DNA of 28,572 nt from a virus (IMGVR_UViG_3300030107_000131:1-28572), one strand, 5' to 3'; shown: positions 938 through 21,756, counted from the stretch's first letter. Translations and numbers: made by a program. Notes: generated by a model from the letters alone, not told the origin.

Positions 938-1366
938 ATGCAAACATTTCTACCTACAGAAGATTTTAGAGAGTCAGCACAAATACTAGACTACAAAAGA
1001 CTAGGTAAGCAAAGAGTAGAAGCATTACAGATATACAACGCTCTATGTAATATACCTACTAAGAGTGGCAGAAGTTATAGAGGCTGGCTAAATCATCCTG
1101 CTGTTCTAATGTGGAAAGGCTACGAAGAAGCACTTGTTCTATACAGAAACGCTATGATAGAAGAGTGGATTCTACGAGGATACAACAATACAATGGAGAT
1201 GTATAGTGTAGGGTCTAATGTAAAGATGCCCTATTGGATAGGTGATGATAGAGTACATTCATCACATAGAAGTAATTTACTTAGAAAAGATTTTGATTTC
1301 TATAGTAAGTATGGTTGGGAAGAACCACTTAATATAGAATACTTTTGGATAACAGATAAGGAGTAG
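938..1366 (+). CDS. MSMEG_6728-like / pyrimidine dimer DNA glycosylase-like protein, 142 aa
   Basis: The opening MQTFLPTEDFRESAQILD, followed by KRLGKQRVEALQIYNAL, GWLNHPAVLMWKGYEEAL and SSHRSNLLRKDFDFYSKYGW, matches the conserved blocks I know from the MSMEG_6728 family, which is related to pyrimidine dimer DNA glycosylase (T4 endonuclease V-like, Pyr_excise). Members are about 140-180 aa, so this copy is full length. T4 endonuclease V excises UV-induced pyrimidine dimers and nicks the abasic site. Whether this subgroup has that activity is not established. A repair role would suit a phage of sunlit water. ATG 938 follows TAGGAGAA. Confidence 0.8.
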   Translation: MQTFLPTEDFRESAQILDYKRLGKQRVEALQIYNALCNIPTKSGRSYRGWLNHPAVLMWKGYEEALVLYRNAMIEEWILRGYNNTMEMYSVGSNVKMPYWIGDDRVHSSHRSNLLRKDFDFYSKYGWEEPLNIEYFWITDKE

Positions 1367-1369
1367 AGA

Positions 1370-1516
1370 ATGAGAGAGATAATACATCATCTACTAGGCT
1401 CTTGTGGAGAAACACACATTAGTATAGTTACATTACTGTCTAGTGGTGTGGCTATTCTATGCAAAGATTATATTATATATATAATTAGAGAGGTTAGAGA
1501 TGCAATGTTTAAATGA
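1370..1516 (+). CDS. Tiny membrane-associated protein, 48 aa
   Basis: ATG 1370 lies in GGAGTAGAGAATG just after the stop of the glycosylase-like gene, and the frame runs to TGA 1514-1516. It therefore overlaps the start of the amidoligase gene at 1500 by 17 nt. The product starts MREIIHHLLGSCGETH and continues into a hydrophobic stretch (about residues 17-40), then charged IREVRD. One membrane helix is likely. Unknown function. The position, overlaps and start site support a real gene. Confidence 0.5.
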   Translation: MREIIHHLLGSCGETHISIVTLLSSGVAILCKDYIIYIIREVRDAMFK

Positions 1517-3410
1517 AGTATTAGTATTAAATGCTAGAACAGTATATCGTGTAGAGCCTAGAGTATCAAAAATAGAAGATATTAATTTTGCTAATATACG
1601 ACATATTGTTCTACACGCTTTAGCTAATAATAAAACTTTTCATAATGATTTAAGTGCAAGTGATGATAACTTAAATAACTCTATAAGATGTAGAACTTTT
1701 AAAGTTCTAAGGTCTATAGGTGGTGTTGAAGGATATGCTGAGAATACTATACACCATAATTTTGTTATACAGAGCACAGTAAACAATCTGATTTATCTAG
1801 CTAGAGCAAATGACCTAGCGTTTCAAGGTAGATACGATTTTCTATCTAGGGTTGGTTGTATATATTTTGATAGTAAAGATTATGGTATAAGTCCTTATGG
1901 TAATTTCTATGTAGCTAATCAAACAGATATGACTAAGGCTTTAAATCCAAATACTATAAAAACTGTTATGTATGAGAGATTTACTCCTACAATAGATTTA
2001 GCATATAATGCTATAGAATGGGTAGACTCTATATATCATGAGAATAGATTTTTTAAGATACAAAAAAGTTATCTTCATTCTATAGTACATAAACAATCTA
2101 CACATGTTTACGCTGAGAGTGATTATCATTATAAATGTAAAGTCTATAAAACTTTATACTATAATCCACATGAAGAATCTGTTAATGTAGATGGCGATAA
2201 ATATTGTTTTGAAGCATATATAAATCTTAAAAAAGAATGTGATATGTGCCTATATGAAAATAGATTAGATGACTTGTATTACGAAGAAAAACTAAATAGA
2301 TATAGTGATGATATTATAGTAAAACTGCTAGCAAAATCTGATATAAAAAAGATATGTAGTGATTGTATGAATTATATATATAGACTTTGTACACATTGTG
2401 GGAACTATAAACATTTAGATATAGATGTGTGTACTTCTATAAAAAGTAAGGATGACAGAAATCAGTTTTTACATGAACATAGAGCAAGTATAGGTAATAG
2501 CTACACTAAGATAAATGACTATCAATATTGTAATGATTGTGCAGATGAAGCTCTAACTAGTAACTTGTATAATACAACAAGACAATATAGAACTCCATCT
2601 ATACATGAGATAGATAAGGATAGTAAGATACATAGACATTGTTCTATAGAAAGTGAAGTTATTACAGAATATGATGACTCAGATAGTTATATAGATAATG
2701 TAGGTGAACTAAGGGGTTGGAAGATAGTACATGATGGCTCTCTATCTGATGGAGGCATAGAGTTCAAACATAGAAAGCCTTTGATTGGTTCAAACATAGC
2801 TAGAAGTATAGACAATCTAGAAGACCATCATTTTAGTGAGGGGAATTGGGTAGATGGTTCTTGTGGTATACATGTTCATTTTAACGCTAGAGATTTTAGA
2901 TTCAAAGAAATGCAGATACTATCTATAATTATGAATCATATAGACGATACAATACAAGAGTCTCTACCTAGAGAGAGAAGGAATAGTTCCTATGCTAAAA
3001 AGTTTGTAATGAACTATAATAGAATAGTTAAGTGGAGAAACATATTAGATTTATCTAAACATTATTATGAAGAACGAAACAATACAACCATAGACAATAG
3101 AAGATATAATAGTGCTAGGTATACAAGTACAAACTTACACGCTAGATTCTATCACGGTACAATAGAATTTAGACATCACGAAGGTTCATTAGATGGTAGA
3201 CCTATCTACAAATGGGTTAGATTCCTCTATAATATTATGCAAGCTACAAAAGAAACTGCTAATCAATCTACAAATAGAGGCAAAAGACTTAATAAGATTT
3301 TATATAATAGAAACTTGATAGAGAAAACCACCCCTATGAAGTTGATAGATATAATAGGTGGTAACTATTCAAGTAATTATATAGGAGACAGAATAAACAA
3401 TAACAAATAA
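1500..3410 (+). CDS. Amidoligase_2-type (GS-like) amidoligase with N-terminal zinc-ribbon region, 636 aa
   Basis: The C-terminal part (about residues 378-600) carries the motif set of the glutamine-synthetase-fold amidoligases: IESE at 383-386 (acidic Mg/ATP-binding pair E384/E386), CGIHVHF at 455-461 and HGTIEFRHHEG at 552-562 (E556, R558). Family members are predicted to use ATP to join an amine to a carboxylate. The N-terminal 240 residues match nothing I know. Residues 247-347 contain four CxxC pairs (247/250, 286/289, 297/300, 344/347) typical of zinc ribbons. It is a paralogue of the protein at 4818-5963, and motif order and spacing agree. All key residues are present, so activity is plausible. 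The gene is followed after 12 nt by a glutamine amidotransferase. The substrate cannot be read from the sequence. Confidence 0.8.
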   Translation: MQCLNEVLVLNARTVYRVEPRVSKIEDINFANIRHIVLHALANNKTFHNDLSASDDNLNNSIRCRTFKVLRSIGGVEGYAENTIHHNFVIQSTVNNLIYLARANDLAFQGRYDFLSRVGCIYFDSKDYGISPYGNFYVANQTDMTKALNPNTIKTVMYERFTPTIDLAYNAIEWVDSIYHENRFFKIQKSYLHSIVHKQSTHVYAESDYHYKCKVYKTLYYNPHEESVNVDGDKYCFEAYINLKKECDMCLYENRLDDLYYEEKLNRYSDDIIVKLLAKSDIKKICSDCMNYIYRLCTHCGNYKHLDIDVCTSIKSKDDRNQFLHEHRASIGNSYTKINDYQYCNDCADEALTSNLYNTTRQYRTPSIHEIDKDSKIHRHCSIESEVITEYDDSDSYIDNVGELRGWKIVHDGSLSDGGIEFKHRKPLIGSNIARSIDNLEDHHFSEGNWVDGSCGIHVHFNARDFRFKEMQILSIIMNHIDDTIQESLPRERRNSSYAKKFVMNYNRIVKWRNILDLSKHYYEERNNTTIDNRRYNSARYTSTNLHARFYHGTIEFRHHEGSLDGRPIYKWVRFLYNIMQATKETANQSTNRGKRLNKILYNRNLIEKTTPMKLIDIIGGNYSSNYIGDRINNNK

Positions 3411-3422
3411 AAGGAGAAACAT

Positions 3423-4547
3423 ATGTGTGGTATATTTGGCTTCGCTAAGAGTAGTCAAAAGCAGACTCAAAATCAGCTAGACATTCTCAAGCGTACCTTT
3501 ACATATCTTACAGAGGAATCATCTCGTAGAGGCAAAGATAGTACAGGCTTCTCTATTATGAATCCTAAAGATAGGTATACATACAAGACATTGACAGACT
3601 CTGAAACCTTAACAGGTAAGCATGAGTGGTTTAATGTTATAGACAAGATAGATGAAGACACATCTATAGTGTTGGGTCATACTAGATACGCAACTACAGG
3701 AGCAAAGACAGTAAACAATGCACACCCATTTAATATAGGTGAGGTTGTAGGTATACATAATGGTATTATATATAACTACAATCAAGTAGCTAAGAATCTA
3801 GGTAAAGCTGTGCCTCAAGTAGACTCAGAGGTTATATTTCAATCTCTGAACACTACAAAAAAGTCTAAGGCTTTCGAGCATATAAACGGAGACTTTGCAG
3901 TAGCTTGGGCAAAAGAGAACAACACTACTTTACATCTAGCTAGAGAGAGTGGTAGACCAATGGTTGTATCTTATTGGAAGAAAGCTAAGGTTCTATTCTT
4001 TGCTAGTACAAGAGCAATTATGAAAGATGCTATGAGAGATGCAGGGTTAATGCTAAAGATACAAGATGTATCAGAGGACAAGATATTTAGTTTTGATACA
4101 TCTAAGTTCTCTACAAAACCATTCTATGATACAGAAGAGTTCTCTACTCTAAGTCAAGGTATAGACTATGGTTATGGTAGCTATAATTGGGGTTATGGTA
4201 GTCATTACAACAATGTAAGTAGTTGTGATTCTAACTACAATACATTTGAGAATGATGGCTACTGTACTAAATGTGGAGACTATGAATACAAGAATGGCTA
4301 TTGTGCAGAGCATTTGCCTGCAGAAGAGTTTAATATGAGTCCAGCTACTAAATCTCTTCACGATATGAAAGAACAGTTCTATTGTGAGTTGTGCTATGAA
4401 GAGTGTTTTGTAGATGACCTAGACTATAATGAAGATATAAACAAATGGGAATGTATAGATTGTGCTGATGATTTATTTAAGGATGTTCCTAAATATCTAT
4501 TAAAAGGGGGTAGTGATGAAGAAAGTGATTCTAGTGGGGTTTCCTAA
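3423..4547 (+). CDS. Solitary class II glutamine amidotransferase with C-terminal zinc ribbons, 374 aa
   Basis: The protein begins MCGIFGF, so Met removal would expose Cys2 as the N-terminal nucleophile of the GAT-II family. Further GFAT-type signatures are HTRYATTG (86-93), NAHPF (99-103), IHNGIIYN (111-118), DSEVIF (134-139) and INGDFAVAW (154-162). The glutaminase domain ends near residue 225. There is no SIS/isomerase or asparagine synthetase domain; instead a Tyr/Gly-rich linker leads to cysteine pairs at 281/284, 321/324 and 344/347 that look like zinc ribbons. The glutaminase would release ammonia from glutamine for a partner enzyme, and the amidoligases encoded on both sides are the obvious candidates. 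ATG 3423 follows AAAGGAGAAAC. Its end overlaps the next start. Confidence 0.88.
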   Translation: MCGIFGFAKSSQKQTQNQLDILKRTFTYLTEESSRRGKDSTGFSIMNPKDRYTYKTLTDSETLTGKHEWFNVIDKIDEDTSIVLGHTRYATTGAKTVNNAHPFNIGEVVGIHNGIIYNYNQVAKNLGKAVPQVDSEVIFQSLNTTKKSKAFEHINGDFAVAWAKENNTTLHLARESGRPMVVSYWKKAKVLFFASTRAIMKDAMRDAGLMLKIQDVSEDKIFSFDTSKFSTKPFYDTEEFSTLSQGIDYGYGSYNWGYGSHYNNVSSCDSNYNTFENDGYCTKCGDYEYKNGYCAEHLPAEEFNMSPATKSLHDMKEQFYCELCYEECFVDDLDYNEDINKWECIDCADDLFKDVPKYLLKGGSDEESDSSGVS

Positions 4548-4815
4548 CTCTATCAAACTAAAGTCTAAGAATTATGTTATTAGAACTTTATATGAGAGAG
4601 CAAAAAAGAATCCGTTTCTATCTAATCACTCTTATGATGAGTACCTAGACTTTCTAATAAATCAAGTAGAAAGTTTGTCATCTACTAAGGTAGATATAGA
4701 TAGGAATAGTGATACATTAGAGAGAGATATATACAATGCTCTAAGAAAACTAAATTGGCTGAAGGTGATTAATGGATTGTTTGTAGGTATCATAACAACC
4801 AATGTGGGGGTGTAG
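4516..4815 (+). CDS. Hypothetical protein inside the amidoligase cluster, 99 aa
   Basis: ATG 4516 is preferred over GTG 4513 because AAAGGGGG ends only 5 nt upstream of the ATG. The gene overlaps the end of the glutamine amidotransferase gene by 32 nt and stops two bases before the second amidoligase, so it is embedded in the cluster. The product begins MKKVILVGFPNSIKLKSK, has a helical charged centre and ends in a more hydrophobic stretch (about residues 83-99, GLFVGIITTNVGV). No cysteines and no family I recognise. Context makes an accessory protein or modification acceptor possible, but this is inference only. Confidence 0.7.
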   Translation: MKKVILVGFPNSIKLKSKNYVIRTLYERAKKNPFLSNHSYDEYLDFLINQVESLSSTKVDIDRNSDTLERDIYNALRKLNWLKVINGLFVGIITTNVGV

Positions 4816-4817
4816 AT

Positions 4818-5963
4818 ATGCCTAGCCTTACACAAGTACAAGCACAAACAGAGCCACCCCCAGAGACACATCCTTGTGGAGATTGTGGGGAGGATATTTC
4901 ATTAGATGTGTGTAGATGTGATACTTGCCAAGAGGATTACTATGAATGTGCTGGTTGTGGCGACGAAATTCATATGGATGATACTAGCTGTGTTAATGAT
5001 GAAGGCTATTGTCAAGATTGTTTCTATGAATACCATGACTATTGTTATGGTTGTGGAGAGGCTCACGATAGAGATGATATGTACTATAGAAATGAAGAGT
5101 ACTATTGTGACTCATGTGTTCCAAGCGAAGATGATTGTGTAGATAGATTAGAGAACCTATCCGTGCCTTCTAGTGCTCGCAGTTCTAGTACATTTAATTA
5201 TCTAGATGTAAAAAGATATGTAGGCATAGAGGCAGAGTGTCAGTACCCTAATGATGTATCATCTATAGACTATCCAAGTGGATGGACTCATTGTTATGAT
5301 GGTTCTATAAATGCAGATGAAGGATACTCTGGCACAGAGATGGTGTCTAAGCCTGCAGATGGAGATGCATTATATGATACAGTTAATAGTCTATGTGATT
5401 GGGCATACAGATATGAAGCTAGAGTTAATAGGTCTTGTGGTCTACACATACACTTCAACTCTTTAGACTTAAATGCTAGACAAATAGCTAGTATAGGTAT
5501 GGTATATAAAATATTAGAGGATACTATATATAATATGATGCCACCATCTAGAAAGAAAGCTAATTGGTGTAAGAGATTCCCTATAAGCTATACAGGTCTA
5601 AGAGATGTAGCAAAGTATAATTGTGAACAGACTCTAGTGGATTATTATTATAGCCGTTATGGTGCTAGTACAGAGAAGTATAATGATAGTAGATATCATG
5701 GTCTTAATCTACACGCTAGGTATTATCATGGAACTATAGAGTTTAGACATCATAGTGGTACTCTAAACAAAGAGAAGATTCTTAATTGGATTAAGATATG
5801 CAACGCTATTATAGAAGCAGGGATAAGACTTAGTAGTAGTGATTCTAGATTAGAAAAACTACATCATAAGACTACCAATGTTGTTAGAAGGTATGTATTA
5901 GGTACTGAATTAATAAAGTATGTAAACAAGAGAACTGCAAAGTTCAGAACAGAAGGAGAGTAA
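4818..5963 (+). CDS. Amidoligase_2-type (GS-like) amidoligase with N-terminal treble zinc-ribbon/LIM-like region, 381 aa
   Basis: Residues 20-100 hold a dense row of CxxC pairs (20/23, 34/37, 44/47, 65/68, 76/79, 97/100) separated by acidic and aromatic residues, which look like two or three stacked zinc-binding modules. The amidoligase domain follows: GIEAEC at 136-141 (E138, E140), CGLHIHF at 207-213 (H210, H212) and HGTIEFRHHSGT at 304-315 (E308, R310). These are the same motifs in the same order as in the 636-aa protein upstream, so the two are paralogues. The expected reaction is ATP-dependent amide-bond formation. ATG 4818 follows GGGGGTGTAGAT. The two copies may have different substrates, or may form a heteromer with the glutaminase. 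Confidence 0.85.
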   Translation: MPSLTQVQAQTEPPPETHPCGDCGEDISLDVCRCDTCQEDYYECAGCGDEIHMDDTSCVNDEGYCQDCFYEYHDYCYGCGEAHDRDDMYYRNEEYYCDSCVPSEDDCVDRLENLSVPSSARSSSTFNYLDVKRYVGIEAECQYPNDVSSIDYPSGWTHCYDGSINADEGYSGTEMVSKPADGDALYDTVNSLCDWAYRYEARVNRSCGLHIHFNSLDLNARQIASIGMVYKILEDTIYNMMPPSRKKANWCKRFPISYTGLRDVAKYNCEQTLVDYYYSRYGASTEKYNDSRYHGLNLHARYYHGTIEFRHHSGTLNKEKILNWIKICNAIIEAGIRLSSSDSRLEKLHHKTTNVVRRYVLGTELIKYVNKRTAKFRTEGE

Positions 5964-6378: not shown

Positions 6379-6524
6379 AATCAATAGTAACAGAACATGG
6401 TTGGAAAAAAGCTGAAGAGATTCTCAAGACAATAAAACATAATAGAAAGATAAAAAGTTCTTGTGGATGCAGAAATAAAGATGTAAATTCAACCACTAAA
6501 AAAGGAGAGATTAGATGCCGATAA
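6366..6524 (+). CDS. Hypothetical basic protein, 52 aa
   Basis: ATG 6366 lies inside the end of the preceding gene, behind GAGGAGAAAATAGA, and the frame ends at TAA 6522-6524, overlapping the start of the nuclease gene by 10 nt. The product is basic, with a CGC motif near residue 38 (KSSCGCRNKD). The overlap on both sides and the clear ribosome binding site argue for a real gene. Function unknown. Confidence 0.5.
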   Translation: MGKIKSIVTEHGWKKAEEILKTIKHNRKIKSSCGCRNKDVNSTTKKGEIRCR

Positions 6525-7390
6525 AGGGTTTTACATACCCAGATGGAGAGAAGATTGGCATAGATAAAGTAGTGAGTGGAGAAGTAGATGTAGAGAGAAT
6601 GGGAATAGCATTACCATCTCTAATACAAATGACTCAAGAGAGAGACCCAAATAGAAAACCATCTACTACAGAACTATTAAACGGAACTTGCCAAGCATAC
6701 CTAGAGAGGATTACAGATTATTATATAGACCCTCAATCTAGGGCATTCTCTTTAGCTGGTACTTTACATCACGAAAAGCTAGAGAATTCTGCATCAGTAT
6801 TATCTAGGCTAGAATCAGAGTTACCATTAGAACATTTTGGTATAACAGGTATTGTAGATTTATATGATAAAGAAACTAGAACTATTATAGACTACAAACT
6901 AACAGGTTCATACAAAGTTGCACAATGTCTAGGATTACAATATAGGTATGTACCTCATCCTACTGAGAAGTATAAAAGAAATAGTAGATGGGGAAAGAAA
7001 GGACAACCCAAGAGAATGAAACAGTTCTACATAGACGAAAATACTATAGACTTTGGAGATTGGGGTTGGCAGTTAAACTTCTATAGATTACTATTAGAGA
7101 AGAATAACTATCCTGTAGACAAGATGTTGATGCAACTTACAGTAAGAGATGGTGGTGTACAGATAGCAAGAGAGAGAGGAGTGGATAGAAATATTTACCT
7201 ACTAGAAGTTCCTAAGATACATGATGACCATTTAACTAACAAGTTTTTATCTAAGAAAGTGTCTTTAGAAAGTGCATTGTCTAGTGGTGTCATGCCAGAA
7301 CAATGTACTGAAGAAGAGCGTTGGGGTGGCAATAAGTGTAGAAACTACTGCCCTGTTAGTGATGCTTGTATATATTACGAAGGAGAGTAG
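6515..7390 (+). CDS. RecB/Cas4-like PD-(D/E)XK nuclease with Fe-S type cysteines, 291 aa
   Basis: The PD-(D/E)XK pattern is visible: GTLHHEKLE at 82-90 (helical His/Glu motif), GIVDLYD at 112-118 (D115) and TIIDYKLTG at 123-131 (D126, K128). One cysteine in the N-terminal helix region (C59) and three at the C-terminus (C275, C279, C285 in CRNYCPVSDAC) match the 1+3 spacing of the [4Fe-4S] clusters in AddB/Cas4-type nucleases. Such proteins degrade or resect DNA ends. In phages they sit with annealing proteins and SSBs, as here (8131-9295). ATG 6515 follows AAAGGAGAGATTAG. Confidence 0.82.
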   Translation: MPIKGFTYPDGEKIGIDKVVSGEVDVERMGIALPSLIQMTQERDPNRKPSTTELLNGTCQAYLERITDYYIDPQSRAFSLAGTLHHEKLENSASVLSRLESELPLEHFGITGIVDLYDKETRTIIDYKLTGSYKVAQCLGLQYRYVPHPTEKYKRNSRWGKKGQPKRMKQFYIDENTIDFGDWGWQLNFYRLLLEKNNYPVDKMLMQLTVRDGGVQIARERGVDRNIYLLEVPKIHDDHLTNKFLSKKVSLESALSSGVMPEQCTEEERWGGNKCRNYCPVSDACIYYEGE

Positions 7391-11742: not shown

Positions 11743-13074
11743 ATGAAAAGCGTAGATTTAGAACAAGCATTGTTAGGTTGTCTTATACAAGACCCTAACC
11801 AAATAGACAAAGTATTATCTTGGATTACTGCAGAAGATTTCTTTTATTCTGAGTTTAACAAGAAAGTATGGAAAGCTATAAAGAGAATATATAATAGCAA
11901 AGACCAAGTAGATTTAAATACAATTAGCAACGAGGTTTCTTTAGGAGATTCTGGTCGTCATGCTATGTATGAAATAACAGGGTTCTTAGATAAGGTTGTG
12001 TCTCCATCATATGCAGTTACCTATGCAAAGATGCTTCATAACTACTATCTAAGGAGGATGCTTAATAAACAAATGTCTGCTATCTCCAATGATATAGACG
12101 ATAACAGCGTAGAAACTCAATCATTACTTGAAGATGCACATACTACAATAGGCAATATTATAAAGCTACAACCTAATAAAATATTTAGCGTTAATGCTTT
12201 ACTTGAAGAGACTAAAGAATCTATATTTAATTCTACTACATTGATACAAACAGGGCTACCTAAATTAGATAGAGTTATAACAGGTATGACTAGAGGAGAG
12301 ATAACTATTATAGCTGGTAGACCCGGAAATGCTAAGACAACTGTAGCTGCGAATATGGCTAGAAATTTAGTTCATCAAGGAAAGAAAGTAATAATGTTTA
12401 ATAGAGAAATGCCTAATACAGAGATGATGAAGAAGTTTTTAGCTATGGAAAGTGATAGCTTGCAATATAGAAACCTTAGAAACAATGTAAGCCTTGACAA
12501 AGATAATATACAAGCAACTGTAGATAAGATAAAAGAATTGTACGAAGGTAAGTTGTTTATGTTTGATGATGTTAGGGATATGGAGAATACATTTAGAGAG
12601 ATAAAAGCTATCAAGCCAGATGTAGTTATTGATGACCATATAGGGTTAATAGAGCATCCACCTCAAGACAGAAGGGACTTACGCTTAAAGATAGGAGATG
12701 TAAGCCGTAACTATAAGTGGTTAGCAAAGGCAGAAGATATGTCTGTAGTTTTAGTATCGCAGATGAATAGAAATATGGAGCATAGAAATGACAGAGTACC
12801 TAGACTATCTGACCTTGCTGAGTCTGGCAACCTAGAACAAGATGCAGAGATTGTAGTATTCTCTCATTATCCTTGGGTATCTAGATATGGAGATGATGGC
12901 AACAGCGATTGTTATTTAGAACTTATAGTAGCTAAGAACAGATATGGGCAAACTAATTCTTGTGAGGTTGGATATCATGGTAACAGTTGTTTAGTTACAG
13001 AGTCAGAACAGGATGCAGTAGATATGGCTAACAAAAGAGGAGATACAGTTAGTGGTACTCCTAATCCTTTTTAG
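11743..13074 (+). CDS. dnaB: DnaB-like replicative DNA helicase, 443 aa
   Basis: The N-terminal helical domain (EQALLGCLIQDPNQI, residues about 6-20) and linker are followed by a RecA-like ATPase core: Walker A GRPGNAKTT at 192-200, the DnaB 'FNREM' motif near 226, Walker B PDVVIDDHIGLI around 292-303, VSQMNR and the LAESGNLEQDAE block near 360-376. It would unwind the replication fork as a hexamer. Length (443 aa) is normal. The Walker A has Ala197 where Gly normally precedes the Lys. No primase domain is fused and no DNA polymerase gene is visible in the window, so polymerase and primase may come from outside the window or the host. The stop overlaps the convergent gene by 3 nt. Confidence 0.92.
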   Translation: MKSVDLEQALLGCLIQDPNQIDKVLSWITAEDFFYSEFNKKVWKAIKRIYNSKDQVDLNTISNEVSLGDSGRHAMYEITGFLDKVVSPSYAVTYAKMLHNYYLRRMLNKQMSAISNDIDDNSVETQSLLEDAHTTIGNIIKLQPNKIFSVNALLEETKESIFNSTTLIQTGLPKLDRVITGMTRGEITIIAGRPGNAKTTVAANMARNLVHQGKKVIMFNREMPNTEMMKKFLAMESDSLQYRNLRNNVSLDKDNIQATVDKIKELYEGKLFMFDDVRDMENTFREIKAIKPDVVIDDHIGLIEHPPQDRRDLRLKIGDVSRNYKWLAKAEDMSVVLVSQMNRNMEHRNDRVPRLSDLAESGNLEQDAEIVVFSHYPWVSRYGDDGNSDCYLELIVAKNRYGQTNSCEVGYHGNSCLVTESEQDAVDMANKRGDTVSGTPNPF

Positions 13075-13868
13075 CGATTATAATATTGATTGATAAATTT
13101 TCTAATAGTAGCAGAGTGCCCAATACGACCTTTTTTAGGAGAATATCTAAGATTATCTCGACTTATTTCATCCCATGCAAAAGACGCTGGTTCTGTTCTT
13201 CTTTTTTTAAAACCAGCAGTTCTTCCTAATTGTGTCCAAAAATTATCCCATAGCTTTGGCTCTATCATTGAATGTGCTGTATGTTCTACAGTTCCTTTTG
13301 TTTCATATCTTTTATAATCTCCAAGTTTTATATATTCTTGTTGATTTTGTTTTTTTAAAGATTCTCTTTTGCTTTTGTCCCCTTTAAATTGTTCTGAATG
13401 AGCCATTTCTGCAAACAAATCTGATACATTACCACTTTCAACTTTTAAAGTATCTGTTTTATCTCCTAAATGAAAACTAGCTCTGTGTGTATGGTCGCTT
13501 TGTTTTATATATGGCTTACCTACTTTTTCCCAAATTTTTCTTAATGTATTTTTTTCTACAATATCTGGTGTTGGTCTTAGACTTTCAATTCCAAATGAAC
13601 CGGAAAGTTCTTTGCCATATTGAGGAGTAAAATCGCTATATAAATTATCTAATGTAAATGGTTTATTTGTGCCATATAGAAGTTTATTGCCGTAAGTAGG
13701 CACTGTATTTCTTAACTTATAGTATGAAGAAATAAAAGATTTGAAACTATTATCTGGGTTATCTAACTCAGACTCAAATAGTAAATAGTCTATGTTGTTA
13801 TGCACGCTGGTTGATGCAGGAGTAGTAGCTTGTGGCTTAAGAAAATCTGACATAGATTGTTTAGGCAT
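13071..13868 (-). CDS. Putative virion-associated protein with zincin-like Glu/His motif, 265 aa
   Basis: This is the last gene of the minus-strand structural operon; its ATG overlaps the stop of the 1218-aa gene (TAATG). The N-terminus MPKQSMSDFLKPQ is low complexity. The centre contains FAEMAHSEQF (152-161) and, about 35 residues later, VEHTAHSMIEP (194-204), a combination like that of zinc metallopeptidase-like domains (Glu/His helix, then Glu-xx-Ala-His). The first His of a classical HExxH is absent, so catalysis is uncertain. A protein ejected with the DNA or acting on peptidoglycan is possible. Confidence 0.6.
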   Translation of the reverse strand: MPKQSMSDFLKPQATTPASTSVHNNIDYLLFESELDNPDNSFKSFISSYYKLRNTVPTYGNKLLYGTNKPFTLDNLYSDFTPQYGKELSGSFGIESLRPTPDIVEKNTLRKIWEKVGKPYIKQSDHTHRASFHLGDKTDTLKVESGNVSDLFAEMAHSEQFKGDKSKRESLKKQNQQEYIKLGDYKRYETKGTVEHTAHSMIEPKLWDNFWTQLGRTAGFKKRRTEPASFAWDEISRDNLRYSPKKGRIGHSATIRKFINQYYNR

Positions 13869-16800
13869 TATAATTTAAACCCTTTAAATTCATTTAACGC
13901 TTGTTTCTTATATCTTTTCATCTTTCTTTGCATTAATTTTTTAAAGCTGATGTCACTCATAGTTATAGGAAATTGAGTATTTGCATTATTCCAAGCATCT
14001 ACTTCAGCATATGCTCTATCATAGTCTTCGCTAGTCTGTGCTTTTTCTAGCATATTCATAATCTTTCTAACTCTAAATCCCTTAGAAGATTTTATTCTAT
14101 CTAACTTCATACCTTCAGTTTCAATTCTCTTTGATGCCTCTCTTAGTAAAGAACTTCCTGTTAGCTTTGCTAATCTTGCTGGACTTCTCAGTAAAGCATC
14201 AGCCCTTAAGTCTCTAAAATCAGATTCTATAGCTGGTAAAAACCTAGTAAAAAAATTATCTACATCTGATAGTAATGGTGGGTACGCTAAGAATTTTAAT
14301 GAACTAGAAACAGTTTTTCCTTCATCTAAACTAGCTGATACAAGTTCTCCCATAAACCCAAAAGCACCAACAGCCATAACACCTTCTGCTATTTCCTGTA
14401 TATTTTCTGGCATACCACCATCTGCATTAGGAGGTACTTCTCCAGATATCCACCTCTTCATAAAATCTTTAGCTTGATTTGCTGTGTAAGCACCAGCCAC
14501 ACCAGCTATAGCCAACCTCATTATAGGCATAAAGTTACCATAGGCTATATCATGTCTAGCTAAATCCATAAGATAATTATATTGCCTGTAACCAAATCTT
14601 TTAAACTGAGTAAGCATTTTAGCTTTAGGATTATTAAAGATTAATGGGTCTTCTAGTATGTCTTTTTGTAGCTGACTTCTTCTAGCAAACTTAGACATAG
14701 CCCTTACATAATCATCATCAGTTAATCTAGAAACCTTAGAGTCTATACCAAGTTGATTTAACTTACTAGCTGCCCACTCTCTTCTAAGCTTAGACCTACC
14801 TAATAAACCTTGACCTTTAACTGCTTTAAACATATCATCTACTAAAACTCTAGCTGTAGCCGCTGCAGTTATTTGATTTATTTTATTTATACCATTGAAT
14901 CCACTAAACTTACTTAACCCTTCTACTACTTTATTAGTTATTTTAGATTGGTTAGATATACCAATCATTTCATTAAACATAGAGTAGTTAGTTACACCAG
15001 ATTTTTCAATAAGTTCTCTTGTGTTTTTGTTTGTTAATGAAAACAATCCTCTAAAAAAAGGAATATACCCAGCTTCTAAAGCTGTAGATATAGTTGCCTG
15101 TGATACATTCATAAGAGGAGCATAACCAAGTCCTATCTTAAATCCTGTTTGCCACTCCATGTATTTTCTCCACAGATTCTTAGTCTCTGGTTTATAGTTG
15201 TATTTGGAATTGTATTCTATATCTCCTTTAACATGAGAGAACAACTCTGTCATTATTCCTTTGTCTTCTATCTCAGCAGATTTTAATAAGGCATCAAATC
15301 TCTCTCCCTTAGCACCAAAGTTTTTAACAAAAGCAGTTCTATTAGCAGCTTTAGTAGCATACCTAGTCATCAATGTTTTAAAGTTTCTTTCTAATAATTC
15401 TTCTGGCACATTAAATCTTCTTGCTTTTTCTAGGTTTCCAAAGGTGTTAAATAATTCTTCTGATAACCCATTAGCAACTCTAGAATATGCTCTTAAATAT
15501 TGTAGGTCAGAACCACTTTCTATGTTAGCAAAAATTAAATCTCTTGTATTTTTATTTAACCTATCAGAACTTCTTTGAATTAATTTATTTAAGTATTCAG
15601 CTAACTTTTTATTTTTATTTATAAATAGTTCTGGGTTTACCATAGCACCAAATACAGCATCTCCCTCCATATATGCAAAATCAGTTTTTAATATTTTAGC
15701 TATTTCAGATTTCTTTCCTATAACACTTAGCATGTCATCAAATACAGCATCAGCTATATCTCTGTTAAGCATTTGAGGTACATAGTTTTTTATGTAACCC
15801 GGAAGCTGACCACCTTCTGCAGAAAACCTTCTTGCAATTAAATCAGTAACACTATCAGCTTCTGGAAATTTACCTTCTTGTTTTATTCTTGTTAGGTCTC
15901 TATAGTAAGCTTCTTCTGCTTGAGCTTTGCTCATACCTTTTTTTCTAAATTTATTTATAGTCTTACTACTAGGATTAAATACACCTAGTCTCATTAATCT
16001 ACCTATATACTCTCCAGTTAAAACATCTTTGTCTGCTGTATAATTTGCAGTTGAATTGTAAAACTTTCTTATTGATGCTTTTTGAGAACCTCTATATTTT
16101 GCTCTGTTTAATGTATTAAATAAGTTTTGTATAGGTTTTGGAAAAAAGTTTTCTTTGTTCAATCCACTCTTTGCTTCTTGAGTAACCCAACCCTCTGCTT
16201 TAATTTTATTTATATTGTCATTTGCTAATTTCTTTTTAGCTAATGAGTTTCTATATCTGTCTAGTTCAAGAGGGTTTAAAAAGTCTAAATTTATTCTATC
16301 ACCTATAAGTTCTTTTACTTGAGTATCTGATAGAAGTTTTTGTTTTTCTTTGTTTAAAGAATTGTTTCTAAGAAACTGTAAGTTAGATTCATTGAAACCT
16401 AAATCCTTTTCCATCTTTCTTAAGTTTTGTTTTCTAACTTTTAGTATGTCTTCAAACGTAGCTTTTTGATTTTCGCTAGACAATCTATATGTTTTATTAA
16501 ATCTTAACTTATTAACATTTCTAACTTCATTAGTACCAGAACCTATTAGTGTATAACTGTTACCTTTTTTATTTATTATATTCCATTTCTTACCAGCTCT
16601 ATCAATCCAAATTTCATTCTGTTGCCTTGCTAAATCTAATGTATCTACCTCTGAACCATATGCTTCTGCTAGTTCATTACTAACTTTTTCTCTTTTAGTT
16701 AAAGGTTTTCTACCTCTCTCAATAAATTTTTCTAACTCTGTCTTAGAGTTTAATGCTCTAGAAACACCTCTTAATCCAAGTAACATACCACCAGCAGTTA

Positions 16801-17524
16801 GATAATCTTGTGGTGTAGGCATCTCTCCTTCTGATAACGGAGTAATTGTGCCTAACGCTGCTGTTTCTCCAGCTACTTTAGTTAATGTACTAGCCCCTCT
16901 TGCAGTTAAGTAAGTACCTACTCCAGCAGTAGCCCCACCTAATACAGCACCAGATACAGTATCTTTAAGCACTCCACCTAATTGTATCTCCCCTGTATCT
17001 TTTTTCTGTTGTAAAGCACCACCAAATCCTTCGTACAGCGATAAAGCACCAGCTTGTCTGCCTATATTAGCAGATGCGTTCCTAGCTACATTCTTAGCAA
17101 CACTACCCTTAACTCCATTACGAACTAAGTTTTTAAATACATACTTAGTTGCAAGGTTTTTAGCTGCAGCTCCACCTATACCACCACCTAAAGCCGTTAC
17201 AGCTAAATCAGTAGGAGCAAGAAAAGATGCGATACCAGCTCCCAAGTCAGCAAGGACTCCGGGTTCATACCCAGACAAATCAAACCTTTTCTTTCCTGTA
17301 GCCATCTCTTGAGCCATACCCTGTATAGAACGATTATATCCAAGCTTAATAAAACTTGGCAAAGAGTCAAATATATTTTTAGAAGTTTCACTAGAGTAAT
17401 CTGTTATCTCATTCTTATATTCTGGAAACTTTTTGACAAGTGCATTAAACAACTTATCATCATCTATATTATTTAAGTCTGGATAGGTGTTTCTATATTT
17501 AGATAAGAGTTGAGACTTATTCAT
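13868..17524 (-). CDS. Large internal/ejection virion protein, 1218 aa
   Basis: Size, place in the structural operon and composition point to an internal virion protein of the podovirus type. Residues about 85-265 are Gly/Ala-rich and hydrophobic with glycine-zipper-like runs (LGGGIGGAAAKNLATKYV, GAVLGGATAGVGTYL). The middle is long, charged and helical. Near residues 780-830 there is a WQTGFKIGLGYAPLMNVSQ block, and hydrophobic segments sit near 995-1015 and 1045-1060. The C-terminal third resembles the large polyvalent-protein-associated (LPD38-like) region of phage virion proteins, by eye only. It may cross the host envelope during DNA entry. No clear lysozyme or protease motif is seen. 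ATG 17524 overlaps the upstream stop (ATGA). Confidence 0.75.
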   Translation of the reverse strand: MNKSQLLSKYRNTYPDLNNIDDDKLFNALVKKFPEYKNEITDYSSETSKNIFDSLPSFIKLGYNRSIQGMAQEMATGKKRFDLSGYEPGVLADLGAGIASFLAPTDLAVTALGGGIGGAAAKNLATKYVFKNLVRNGVKGSVAKNVARNASANIGRQAGALSLYEGFGGALQQKKDTGEIQLGGVLKDTVSGAVLGGATAGVGTYLTARGASTLTKVAGETAALGTITPLSEGEMPTPQDYLTAGGMLLGLRGVSRALNSKTELEKFIERGRKPLTKREKVSNELAEAYGSEVDTLDLARQQNEIWIDRAGKKWNIINKKGNSYTLIGSGTNEVRNVNKLRFNKTYRLSSENQKATFEDILKVRKQNLRKMEKDLGFNESNLQFLRNNSLNKEKQKLLSDTQVKELIGDRINLDFLNPLELDRYRNSLAKKKLANDNINKIKAEGWVTQEAKSGLNKENFFPKPIQNLFNTLNRAKYRGSQKASIRKFYNSTANYTADKDVLTGEYIGRLMRLGVFNPSSKTINKFRKKGMSKAQAEEAYYRDLTRIKQEGKFPEADSVTDLIARRFSAEGGQLPGYIKNYVPQMLNRDIADAVFDDMLSVIGKKSEIAKILKTDFAYMEGDAVFGAMVNPELFINKNKKLAEYLNKLIQRSSDRLNKNTRDLIFANIESGSDLQYLRAYSRVANGLSEELFNTFGNLEKARRFNVPEELLERNFKTLMTRYATKAANRTAFVKNFGAKGERFDALLKSAEIEDKGIMTELFSHVKGDIEYNSKYNYKPETKNLWRKYMEWQTGFKIGLGYAPLMNVSQATISTALEAGYIPFFRGLFSLTNKNTRELIEKSGVTNYSMFNEMIGISNQSKITNKVVEGLSKFSGFNGINKINQITAAATARVLVDDMFKAVKGQGLLGRSKLRREWAASKLNQLGIDSKVSRLTDDDYVRAMSKFARRSQLQKDILEDPLIFNNPKAKMLTQFKRFGYRQYNYLMDLARHDIAYGNFMPIMRLAIAGVAGAYTANQAKDFMKRWISGEVPPNADGGMPENIQEIAEGVMAVGAFGFMGELVSASLDEGKTVSSSLKFLAYPPLLSDVDNFFTRFLPAIESDFRDLRADALLRSPARLAKLTGSSLLREASKRIETEGMKLDRIKSSKGFRVRKIMNMLEKAQTSEDYDRAYAEVDAWNNANTQFPITMSDISFKKLMQRKMKRYKKQALNEFKGFKL

Positions 17525-18636
17525 TTTTTATTTTTTCTTCTTTGCATATACATTTCTTTTTTAGACATTATCTTACCACCTTCTTTTCTAGTTTGTATAG
17601 GTGTTCCAGAAAAACCTCTTGCATATGTAGGAATATTTTCATATATGTTTTTAGCACCAACTTGTAATGTATCAAGAATATCGTCTACAGGCAACCTCCT
17701 AGCTAATCCTACTGCAGTAGAACCTCCGGGTGCTGCTTGAGCAACACCTCCAATTAAATTTAAAATAGTAGAGGATAAATTACCTTCATCTTCATCATCT
17801 TCAACTTTTCCAATATTATCTAAATTTGGTTCAGTATCAGTTGAAGATTCATAACCAACTAAACCTTCCATAGTAGCAGAGCCTACTCCATATTGTCCAT
17901 ACTTTTCTATAAAAGGTTTATAAGCACTTTTTAATGTTGCCAAAGCTTTTGCTTTTTGGTCATCTCCCAATGCTTGTGTGTATGAAGTTAGTAAACCACC
18001 AAGAACTGACAAATCAGTTTCATATGCCATTTTCACACCCTCATCAAGTATACCAGTTCCAAAACTTTTATCTAGCGATTCGGATACAAACCTCTTTTTT
18101 ACCTCTGGATTATTTCTAAATAAATCTCTGTGTATTGTATCTTCATATTCAAATCCCTCAATAGATTCACTAAAAAAGTTACCTATATTATCTATCTCTG
18201 TGTTTTCTCTTTCAGTATTACTTCTTAGAGCTTGTACTGTTTGCATAGCTAAGTCGTAAGCATTATTATTAACACTAAGATATTTAGCAGCGTGGTCTTC
18301 TAATGTCTTAAATCCCGCCTCATTTTTTTCAACACCAGATGCTACAAGATTAAATCCTGTCATTAAGTCCTCTGCTTCTCTTCTCTTTTTCTTCTCTAGG
18401 TATTCTTCTCTAGCTGTTTTAACTTGTTCTTTTCTAAGAGAAAGCATTTCATCTTGCCTTCTACTATTGTCACTAACTTGTTTTTGTGCTAGTTCTAATC
18501 TTGCATCAGCCCTTCTGTTTTCTGGACTAGCATATTCTGATAAAGTTTCTAATAACATATCAGTACCACTTTTAGGTTGCACTATGTTGATGCTATCTCC
18601 CATAGGAACTACATTATATCTACTTTTTATTGCCAT
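17521..18636 (-). CDS. Probable internal virion protein, coiled coil, 371 aa
   Basis: Residues about 40-95 are a strongly charged coiled coil (LELAQKQVSDNSRRQDEMLS, then KTAREEYLEKKKRREAEDL). The rest is helical, with an acidic stretch (EDDEDEGN) near 285 and a short Gly/Ala-rich segment (LIGGVAQAAPGGSTAVGLA) after it. The C-terminus has one copy of the EGG motif shared with the two neighbouring proteins (353-354) and a basic tail (YMQRRKNKK). It lies between the motif-rich 513-aa protein and the 1218-aa protein, the usual set of ejection proteins. Confidence 0.65.
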   Translation of the reverse strand: MAIKSRYNVVPMGDSINIVQPKSGTDMLLETLSEYASPENRRADARLELAQKQVSDNSRRQDEMLSLRKEQVKTAREEYLEKKKRREAEDLMTGFNLVASGVEKNEAGFKTLEDHAAKYLSVNNNAYDLAMQTVQALRSNTERENTEIDNIGNFFSESIEGFEYEDTIHRDLFRNNPEVKKRFVSESLDKSFGTGILDEGVKMAYETDLSVLGGLLTSYTQALGDDQKAKALATLKSAYKPFIEKYGQYGVGSATMEGLVGYESSTDTEPNLDNIGKVEDDEDEGNLSSTILNLIGGVAQAAPGGSTAVGLARRLPVDDILDTLQVGAKNIYENIPTYARGFSGTPIQTRKEGGKIMSKKEMYMQRRKNKK

Positions 18637-18640
18637 TTAC

Positions 18641-20182
18641 TTATCCTCCGGTAATATTAAGTGAGGGAACAAAATTTCCACTTTGAAATTGATTTTGAAG
18701 GTCTTCCATAATATTATTGTAATCAGATTGTGTTATGTATTGACCATCATAAAAAACATATCTAGTTCCATTGTATGTTACAGCACCCTCATCACGACTT
18801 GGTAACTGACTTACTACCCTTGCAGAGCTTGCAACAGTTTCCGTTCCTTCTGTTCCTTCTAATTGTCCTAACTGTGCTATAGTATCTCCTATAAACTGCT
18901 CACGCATACCTCTTATAGTTTCAAATCTTCTTTGTCCAGCTTGTTCTAAACCAGATTGATACTGCATACCAGCTCTCCTTCTTAAAGCGTCTTGTGATGC
19001 TTGTCTACCACCAAATCCTGCAAAACCACCACCCATATTCTGTGCTCTTAAACTAGCTTGACCAAGAGCACCAGTTCCTTGACTTCTAAGGTTTTGTACT
19101 CCCCTACTATAGTCAGCTAAAGCACCTTGTTCTCTACTAGCATCATATTCTTGAAAATTACGAGCTTGTTCAGCTATAGGTCTAAGACCAGCCATTTCAT
19201 ATATATCTTCTAGCATTGGAGTTTCTGTTGTTTGTGAACCAAAGCTATATACTTGACCACCATTTTGATAACCTCTTATAGTATCGCTTTTAGGTTTAGT
19301 CATCTTAGAAGCTTCGTTAAGTATCTCCATTATATCTTCCATATTGGGAAGCTCTCTTACTCTAATTTGTGCTCTCATATTTTCTGGGTTGTCTTTAAAT
19401 CTTTCTCTTAAAAATTTTATCATAGATATATCATCTTGTAATTTAGAAAGCTCAGACATCATATTTCTTTTAGGATTGACAACACCGATAGTACCAACAT
19501 CTTTAAACTCTCCACGCATCCTTGCATCTATTTGTAATGGGTCTGGGTCTTTTGGTACTTTACCACCCTCTTGGTAGCCAGCATCTTTTAACATATCAAA
19601 AAGAATATTTGTTGTGTCTCCTTGACTTCTCATGTAATTTGCTTTTTCAAAATTTAACAACATATTTAAAGCTTCTTTAGGCTCTAGCTTTCCAGATAGT
19701 ACTTTTTGTTGAATCATACCAGATGGTTTATTTTTAGAATCTTTCATTTCGCTTCTTATAAAATAATCAATCATAGGCTTATCTAGTAATGCTTGTTTTA
19801 AGCTGTCATTTTTTACAGCCTTATCTATAAAACCACCTTCTTGCATATAGCCCATACGATTACGAACTGTAGCTGGCAACTTACCTAAACCTTTGTTGTC
19901 TTTTGGTATTGGTTTTAACTGACCACCTTTGTTCATCATAGAGCTTTCTCTAGTCATATCAACATTATCTTGATTGGCAAGAGTATTAAGAGCTAATAAC
20001 TCATCTATTGCTGAGTGTGCATTTTGTAGTTGAGGAACTAAGCCACCATGACTCATATACATCTGGCTAGACCTATCTATATTGTTCATCATATCTAAAT
20101 TTTCTACTCCTATTTTATCAACGGCATCTTTACGAATAACATATTCACCGGGTTCTAACATAGCTGGTACTGTATCTGCCAT
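18641..20182 (-). CDS. Virion protein with repeated Gly-Gly motifs and tape-measure-like N-terminus, 513 aa
   Basis: The N-terminus DTVPAMLEPGEYVIRKDAV resembles the 'DsVPAlLtPGEfVi...' box that recurs in phage tape-measure and ejection proteins. Five copies of an aromatic/Met-x-x-Gly-Gly-x-hydrophobic motif occur (Gly pairs at 46-47, 86-87, 116-117, 206-207 and 308-309). A central region is charged and helical. Residues about 350-430 are Gly/Gln/Arg-rich. The C-terminus has a WW-like small beta segment (VTYNGTRYVFYDGQYITQ). The ATG overlaps the previous stop (TAATG). Probably an internal or ejection protein, on context. Confidence 0.65.
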   Translation of the reverse strand: MADTVPAMLEPGEYVIRKDAVDKIGVENLDMMNNIDRSSQMYMSHGGLVPQLQNAHSAIDELLALNTLANQDNVDMTRESSMMNKGGQLKPIPKDNKGLGKLPATVRNRMGYMQEGGFIDKAVKNDSLKQALLDKPMIDYFIRSEMKDSKNKPSGMIQQKVLSGKLEPKEALNMLLNFEKANYMRSQGDTTNILFDMLKDAGYQEGGKVPKDPDPLQIDARMRGEFKDVGTIGVVNPKRNMMSELSKLQDDISMIKFLRERFKDNPENMRAQIRVRELPNMEDIMEILNEASKMTKPKSDTIRGYQNGGQVYSFGSQTTETPMLEDIYEMAGLRPIAEQARNFQEYDASREQGALADYSRGVQNLRSQGTGALGQASLRAQNMGGGFAGFGGRQASQDALRRRAGMQYQSGLEQAGQRRFETIRGMREQFIGDTIAQLGQLEGTEGTETVASSARVVSQLPSRDEGAVTYNGTRYVFYDGQYITQSDYNNIMEDLQNQFQSGNFVPSLNITGG

Positions 20183-21066
20183 TACATAATCCTCCTGTTA
20201 AATGGTAGCATGTTTATTAAACCACCGCCTGCGTACATTTTCATTTCTCCACCTTCTTCATATCCATACTTTTTCTTTTTAGCCATACCACCTTTTGCAA
20301 AAGTACTAAAAGTAAATAAATCATCTGATAGATTTGATGTATCTACTAACTGCTCTGAGCCAAAGTAATCTAATCCAGAAGCAAATGCATCATCTGCATC
20401 ATCCATAGTTTCTAAGAAAGGATTATCTGCTAAACCTTGAGCAGTTACATCTCTAGCAAAAGCATCACCTCCTAAACCAAAAGTTCTAGCACCAAAATCT
20501 CCTAACAATCTAGGGGATTTAGCAAGAAGTTTTTGACCAAAATCTTTTCCACCAGCCATCAATCCAGTTTTAAGTCCTGTAGCCAAAGACCTTCCTAAAG
20601 CACCTTCACTAGCTTCTTTATTTATATCCTTTAACCTGTCAAAACCACTTCCTAATAAACCAGTAGATGACCTTCTACCTACACCTCTAGTATCAGTTAC
20701 TCCTTCTGCCAATTTTTCTCCAGCAAAAGAACCAGCAGCAGAGCCTAAACCTTTAGCTATAGCCGGCATAGCAAGTAAGCTTAATCCTCCTGTTGCTCCT
20801 GCAAGTGCTGTTGCGGCTAATCCTCCAAGAGCAGTACCACCAAGACTTCCTAATGTACTAAACAAACCTCTTCTTTTTTCTTGCCTTTCTAGTTTTTTAG
20901 CTTGCTCTATTTGTTCTTGTTGTGCAGTTGCTACATCTCTAGCTAATCCCATTCCAAATAGCTGTCTAGATATTCCGGGGATATAACCACCAGTTTGATA
21001 CTGCATAGGTTTCATGTATCCACCACCCATATATTCTCTTATTGTTTTACCTTTATCGTATGACAT
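20182..21066 (-). CDS. Glycine-rich membrane-active virion protein, 294 aa
   Basis: A long Gly/Ala stretch at about 70-120 (LGSLGGTALGGLAATALAGA, then GGLSLLAMPAIAKGLGSAAG) has the small-residue periodicity of glycine zippers that insert in membranes, as expected for an ejection protein like T7 gp14. Gly-Gly motifs shared with its neighbours sit at 14-16, 26-27, 259-260, 272-273 and 280-282, so they flank the hydrophobic core. The C-terminal part is acidic, then Lys-rich. Likely internal virion protein; family not recognised. Confidence 0.65.
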   Translation of the reverse strand: MSYDKGKTIREYMGGGYMKPMQYQTGGYIPGISRQLFGMGLARDVATAQQEQIEQAKKLERQEKRRGLFSTLGSLGGTALGGLAATALAGATGGLSLLAMPAIAKGLGSAAGSFAGEKLAEGVTDTRGVGRRSSTGLLGSGFDRLKDINKEASEGALGRSLATGLKTGLMAGGKDFGQKLLAKSPRLLGDFGARTFGLGGDAFARDVTAQGLADNPFLETMDDADDAFASGLDYFGSEQLVDTSNLSDDLFTFSTFAKGGMAKKKKYGYEEGGEMKMYAGGGLINMLPFNRRIM

Positions 21067-21078
21067 AATTATATCCTC

Positions 21079-21756
21079 TTAAACTTCTATAAATGTTTTC
21101 CAAACTGATGTAATCCAAAAAACCGTAGATTCACCATCTTGTAAATCCGAACTTGATGTTTGAATAGTCATTGTTGCTAATGCATTTGCTGGAACAATAG
21201 GAGACGCACTCCAGTCAGAGTTGTTAATAACCGTAACTGTACTTGCAACAAAATCTGTTGTGTGTGCAAATGTAGCAATACTGTCTTGAGTTGTATCTCC
21301 ATTATCAATTCTTTCTATGCCAAATGTAATAGTTTGAGTATTATCATTCATGTTTTCTGGTCTAATAATAAGCTTATGACAAATCATTTTAAATGGAGCT
21401 AAAAAAGAACTTTGCTCATTTAAACCAGTAGTTTGCTCTCCAACACCAGACCAAGGCAAATAATGTTTTGTTGTTCCAATATCGTCTTTAAAATTATGAT
21501 TGAAATATCTATAGTCTATAAATCTTCTTTTATACTCTAATTCATTTGCACTAAGTTTTTTATCTACAATCTCATTACCATCTCTTGACATAAGAGTTTT
21601 AAAAACAATACCTTTGTGCTTTCTTCTAACAGCAAGCCTACCATTATCTAAAGATATAAACGTGCCACCTTCTTGTAAGGATGATGCTGGAGTTCCGTCT
21701 GTAAAAGATTGTGGAGTCTCTACTGAATTCATTATTCTTCTTATATCTCTAGACAT
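21079..21756 (-). CDS. Probable structural protein, beta-rich C-terminal domain, 225 aa
   Basis: ATG 21756 overlaps the stop of the tail gene (TGATG), making it a better start than the in-frame TTG three bases upstream. The C-terminal half is beta-rich, with Thr/Asp/Asn-rich strands (MICHKLIIRPENMNDNTQTI and TDFVASTVTVINNSDW), like small receptor-binding or decoration domains. The N-terminal half contains a charged YKRRFIDYRYFNHNF stretch. By context it is a tail-associated or fibre-attachment protein; no family is recognised. Confidence 0.6.
   Translation of the reverse strand: MSRDIRRIMNSVETPQSFTDGTPASSLQEGGTFISLDNGRLAVRRKHKGIVFKTLMSRDGNEIVDKKLSANELEYKRRFIDYRYFNHNFKDDIGTTKHYLPWSGVGEQTTGLNEQSSFLAPFKMICHKLIIRPENMNDNTQTITFGIERIDNGDTTQDSIATFAHTTDFVASTVTVINNSDWSASPIVPANALATMTIQTSSSDLQDGESTVFWITSVWKTFIEV

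Follow-up and report, generated by a model that had tools for sequence, protein, structure and literature searches.

The viral contig IMGVR_UViG_3300030107_000131, analysed over its whole length of 28,572 bp (the window), carries early genes on the plus strand and late genes on the minus strand. Four consecutive plus-strand genes form an operon that, judging from their sequences, probably serves the conversion of glutamine into ammonia and the ATP-driven formation of amide bonds: AL1, an amidoligase of 636 amino acids (1500..3410); GAT, a class II glutamine amidotransferase (GAT-II; glutaminase) of 374 amino acids (3423..4547); orf100, a small protein (4513..4815, the ATG at 4516 being the likely true start); and AL2, a second amidoligase, of 381 amino acids (4818..5963). 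A preliminary description of this DNA had placed two paralogous amidoligases around a solitary glutaminase, and its three open reading frames were recovered exactly; the three enzymes of its cluster stand, but it had overlooked orf100, the cysteine-rich segments of the enzymes and a cyclotransferase gene that relatives carry just past the window edge. The start of orf100 overlaps the end of GAT, AL2 begins 2 nt past the orf100 stop codon, and Shine-Dalgarno-like sequences are found ahead of the module gene starts (AGGAG before the GAT ATG at 3423). A promoter scan gave a signal no better than that of shuffled sequences.

Both ligases belong to the Amidoligase_2 family. PF12224 matches AL1 over residues 403-578 (E=2.6e-19, 70.5 bits) and AL2 over residues 151-331 (E=7.6e-31, 108.3 bits), the curated cut-off being 22, and the PHROG matches are concordant (amidoligase families 2443, 7469 and 7631; glutamine amidotransferase families). 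The proteins are paralogues, 28% identical over 314 amino acids (E=1e-31), with an equal active-site set. The amidoligase motifs of the preliminary description are present in both, as VGIEAE, CGLHIHF and YHGTIEFRHH in AL2 and as CSIESE, CGIHVHF and YHGTIEFRHH in AL1, whose first motif lacks the initial G. Across 27 AL1 and 26 AL2 sequences the ExE, CGxHxH and G[TS]xEFR motifs are invariant or nearly so, and 23 equivalent conserved positions are common to the two proteins. The invariant set of the AL1 homologues comprises E384, E386, D412, S414, E421, C455, H458, H460, R493, N545, H547, R549, E556, R558 and H560, with AL2/AL1 equivalents E138/E384, E140/E386, D161/D412, E174/E421, H210/H458, H212/H460, R245/R493, N297/N545, H299/H547, R301/R549, E308/E556, R310/R558 and H312/H560. 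Since the 23 positions are kept in both, AL1 and AL2 are both expected to be active, and a module with two active ligases is plausible; a pseudo-enzyme role for one of them was rejected, as they keep an equal conserved set.

In the AlphaFold2 models (pLDDT 77.7 for AL1 and 86.4 for AL2) a ligase domain of the glutamine synthetase (GS) fold occupies residues ~380-590 of AL1 and ~131-345 of AL2, so that the GS-fold assignment made earlier is borne out for both paralogues by profile and by fold. AL1 has, in addition, a small beta-rich N-terminal region (1-108), a low-confidence or disordered stretch (110-207) and a cysteine-rich region (~213-347), and AL2 an N-terminal tandem CxxC segment (C20-C100). 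The best fold matches are YbdK and its relative 1tt4 (overall E 4e-5 to 4e-4), the AL1 model matching YbdK/1tt4 with E=4e-5 to 1e-4 and the AL2 model matching YbdK with E=2.7e-4, each at prob 1.00; glutamine synthetase and plant glutamate-cysteine ligase follow for both ligases with weaker E-values. The AL2 model also matches weakly the Pup ligase PafA (E=8e-3), and its N-terminal part matches LIM zinc fingers. No solved structure matched the ligase domain by sequence. AL1 and AL2 have the predicted fold and, we assume, the first-strand ExE motif in common with the YbdK/GCS2 and glutamine synthetase superfamily, but the identity is 8-14%, the TM-scores are at superfamily level, and zinc-finger-like and N-terminal segments have been added. 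The first 200 residues of AL1 (window 1500-2120) evolve fast, match no family and are modelled as partly disordered; this part may be a substrate reader.

GAT consists of a glutaminase domain (residues 1-235) and a C-terminal CxxC segment (C321, C324, C344, C347). Glutaminase-type families were its only matches (GATase_6, E=4.8e-20), and the Pfam profile search revealed no SIS or synthetase domain, in agreement with the earlier reading of it as solitary. The catalytic set C2, R36, G37, R88, H101, N113, G114 and D134, invariant in 24 sequences, is presumably equivalent to C1, R26, G27, R73, H86, N98, G99 and D123 of GlmS, whose structure 4amv is matched by the GAT profile with E=5e-19. GAT and GlmS (GFAT) have the glutaminase domain and the catalytic residues in common, but GAT lacks the SIS isomerase domain and has a cysteine-rich tail instead; in NCBIfam it scores 65.9 bits against the GlmS equivalog TIGR01135, below the cut-off of 418. 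GAT is a solitary class II glutaminase, active-looking in its catalytic residues.

Cysteine-rich, zinc-finger-like segments are present on all three enzymes. CxxC pairs typically number six, and at most eight, in the AL1 homologues, and four in the window AL1; AL2 typically has six, and GAT two conserved pairs plus extras. The arrangement of these segments suggests that they bind metal. With C216 and C239 missing, the first putative zinc site of the window AL1 has probably degenerated; the close relative L110 has lost other cysteines. LIM structures are the nearest matches of the AL2 segment by sequence and fold, and the annotation of one viral protein whose predicted fold is comparable reads 'LIM domain containing'. 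Identity with the LIM domain was rejected: the two-residue LIM spacer occurs in none of 77 sequences, and the AL2 linker is mostly of 7 residues. The ligases of other surveyed phages are mostly without CxxC motifs, loci L084 and L086 being exceptions.

The fourth protein, orf100, is confined to the AL1-GAT-orf100-AL2 module among the surveyed loci. It is 60% identical to orf107 of the related contig L003, compared with 29% for AL1, 54% for GAT and 47% for AL2 between the same contigs, and an alignment of 18 members shows invariant KK, G, K, Y, NPF, L and W. All four module genes are under purifying selection, with dN/dS ≤0.53 in every pair tested; the strongest was found for orf100 in five of six pairs (0.02-0.08), the sixth giving 0.41. 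No match was found for orf100 in PHROG, PDB or NCBIfam, and a weak Pfam match to DUF5312 in 5 of 18 members (best 1e-4) was judged unconvincing.

Single-sequence searches of viral contigs with GAT and AL1 returned no relatives; queries with two-sequence alignments succeeded. Baits from all three enzymes then led to more than 80 contigs, which were surveyed with iterated profiles. The genes AL1-GAT-orf100-AL2 occur on one strand and in fixed order at 52 loci on 51 contigs, the window included, and the module is never incomplete except at contig ends. GAT is kept in all comparable loci, its loss from related phages, considered in the preliminary description, having not been seen. The median gaps between successive genes (17, -24.5 and 1 nt) correspond to a single-operon-like spacing. 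The 52 loci include some near copies, but the mean pairwise identities over the set are low, from 0.34 (AL1) to 0.55 (orf100). The arrangement is not explained by chance: it is found again and again, at 52 loci, and the catalytic residues there are invariant. In a tree of the ligase domains, built by a quick method and with long branches, AL2 falls into a supported set (96*) separate from that of most AL1, a few AL1 rows being unplaced; given these separate sets, the AL1/AL2 pair is older than the diversification of the lineage. At loci recovered with GAT as bait outside the module (L083-L108), where no amidoligase had been used as bait, 24 of 26 have an amidoligase, most often encoded by the gene directly upstream. 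Matches in phage records numbered 160 for AL2, 27 for AL1 and 329 for GAT; no second PF12224 copy was found in the records matched by AL2 or AL1 (one place each), and the phage collection searched held no isolate near this lineage. A scan of genome contigs gave only a distant locus (L119, JAQTLE010000013.1) from a Sulfurovaceae metagenome-assembled genome; this 8.8-kb contig, binned as Campylobacterota, holds an amidoligase together with a GAT and may come from a phage or prophage. One 63.9-kb contig, IMGVR_UViG_3300030101_002855 (L038 and L118), has the four-gene module twice, in non-identical copies, through either a true duplication or an assembly that is chimeric or mixes several phages.

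All 22 records of relatives contain a gene for gamma-glutamyl cyclotransferase (GGCT, PF06094), which was confirmed on four proteins. In these relatives it lies ~5-6 kb upstream of the module on the other strand, where the late genes begin; the window, from which GGCT is absent, ends short of that place. The gene (12811-13182 in L121, and its equivalents) overlaps the start of a neighbour taken by position as the large terminase. Late expression is unexpected for a cyclotransferase serving a modification pathway that acts early. ATP-grasp and PF14395-type COOH-NH2 ligases were detected by profile in none of 22 contigs, of which 20 exceed 40 kb and which may be incomplete as records, and each in all three control contigs.

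Amidoligase, GAT-II and GGCT, usually joined by PF14395 ligase and ATP-grasp, constitute a recognised phage cassette (PMC5498523, PMC3890496, PMC10580990, PMC11945000), for which a peptidoglycan modification hypothesis has been published (PMC5498523, PMC10580990, PMC11945000). Examples are RIO-1, PSA-HP1, phiEco32, LUZ24, PA11 and CW02 (Iyer et al. 2009 and Hardies et al. 2013, as relayed in PMC5498523 and PMC10580990). Thus the general cassette is already known and the module, itself strongly conserved, is one distinct form of it, so that the 'undescribed system' of the preliminary description is new as a variant alone. Both combine a PF12224 ligase, GAT-II and GGCT in one phage, and the module is likewise placed amid early DNA-metabolism genes; however, the module phages lack the ATP-grasp and PF14395 ligases, two PF12224 paralogues stand on either side of GAT, orf100 and the zinc-finger-like segments are added, and GGCT is outside the operon. 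Two-gene amidoligase and GAT pairs, as in Arthrobacter phage Ottawa, OM43 phages and many IMG/VR contigs, have the ligase directly upstream as in AL1-GAT, but possess a single ligase, few or no CxxC motifs and no orf100. For a prophage of Clostridium, two genes for amidoligases together with a GGCT have been reported (PMC11318856). We found no earlier description of paired zinc-finger-bearing PF12224 ligases with GAT and orf100 and without ATP-grasp and PF14395 ligases, and in the papers found on these cassettes no identified product and, for any member, no demonstrated change of peptidoglycan. Phage amidoligase/GAT cassettes are widespread; the module trims the parts list to two ligases, a glutaminase and one small protein, which suggests that ATP-grasp and PF14395 ligases are dispensable and provides a compact setting for the substrate search.

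We propose that GAT hydrolyses glutamine to yield ammonia, and that AL1 and AL2, with ATP and Mg2+, would convert a carboxylate into an acyl phosphate for coupling with ammonia or some other amine. The zinc-finger-like segments, and perhaps orf100, would hold the complex or a polymeric substrate, with ammonia handed over directly, and the two ligases would form two bonds, either successive or alternative. The phage GGCT would cut gamma-glutamyl linkages within the same pathway. The most likely target would be the stem peptide of the host's cell-wall precursors, which contains gamma-glutamyl units; its modification during infection could alter lysis or exclude other phages. By analogy with the published cassettes, the host cell-wall peptide is our leading guess. 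That the module is a glutamine-dependent amide-forming ligase system is, as an assignment of enzyme class, very likely; as a whole, a glutamine-dependent amide-ligase system acting on the cell wall is the best explanation, with a probability of about 0.42. Several observations weigh against it. The whole-chain Foldseek TM-scores are low (0.24-0.40), so that the fold is placed at superfamily level only. The distance and opposite strand of GGCT may mean a looser link to the module. The cell-wall target is taken over from published genomic inference, and our literature search found no biochemistry for any phage PF12224 protein. A PF12224-like protein is present in Catovirus CTV1, where peptidoglycan is not expected, and the family is therefore not cell-wall specific. 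A stronger version, in which the four proteins constitute one stable four-subunit enzyme, a single glutaminase feeding two ligase centres on a zinc-finger/orf100 scaffold to make a linked pair of amide bonds on a substrate new to phage modification, seems rather unlikely.

Among the possible targets we rank gamma-glutamyl small molecules after the cell wall, then proteins, while DNA is disfavoured. In small-molecule metabolism the ligases would make, and GGCT would break, gamma-glutamyl amines of polyamine- or glutathione-like type, serving as nitrogen supply or amine protection in the infected cell, in place of any change to the wall. The fold matches to YbdK, a glutamate-cysteine-ligase-type enzyme, and then to glutamine synthetase and plant glutamate-cysteine ligase favour this possibility, as do the constant presence of GGCT in the relatives and a proposal that comparable genes in phage ZRK32 serve nitrogen metabolism (PMC10945688); however, the zinc-finger-like segments on three enzymes suggest macromolecular docking or assembly, and the solitary GAT suggests ammonia as the amine, synthesis of gamma-glutamyl amines needing no GAT. 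This makes it doubtful, if the likeliest of the alternatives. The zinc fingers, of protein-interaction-like character and carried by two ligases, would suit instead a PafA-like amidation or tagging of host or virion proteins at their carboxylates; PafA appears in the AL2 fold comparison too, as one of the weaker matches. PafA, however, works without a GAT, AL2 resembles it less than YbdK, and no substrate peptide or Pup-like gene was identified, so that protein modification is improbable. The location of the module amid replication and repair genes (PDDEXK, DnaB, pyrimidine-dimer glycosylase) and the participation of GAT-II enzymes in some phage 7-deazaguanine pathways would agree with amidation of a modified base in phage DNA. 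Yet thymidylate-synthase-type hydroxymethylase (PF00303) and QueC (PF06508) are absent from all 22 records (the window and 21 relatives), with working controls, which disfavours a DNA target, and no base-modification family was found among the 32 larger proteins of the relative G001; base hypermodification is thus very improbable. An anti-phage defence system was rejected, PADLOC giving no defence-protein profile match for any of the four module proteins.

G001 encodes a P22-like portal, a SU10-type capsid protein, a terminase and an M15-peptidase endolysin. In the window, late proteins of 1218 and 970 amino acids (13071-24668, minus strand) had no Pfam or PHROG match, and their neighbour of 513 amino acids gave weak matches only, to PHROGs of unknown function. 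The module is flanked on the plus strand by a pyrimidine-dimer DNA glycosylase (T4 EndoV-like; 938..1366; PF03013, E=3.1e-23) and a PD-(D/E)XK exonuclease (6515..7390; PF12705, E=2.4e-7; phrog_2139, E=4e-12). Homologues occupy equivalent positions in L003 for the glycosylase and in L003, L004 and L005 for the exonuclease; both genes are syntenic neighbours and were not counted as part of the module. A terminator-like hairpin with a T tail is located at 863-883, immediately ahead of the glycosylase gene.

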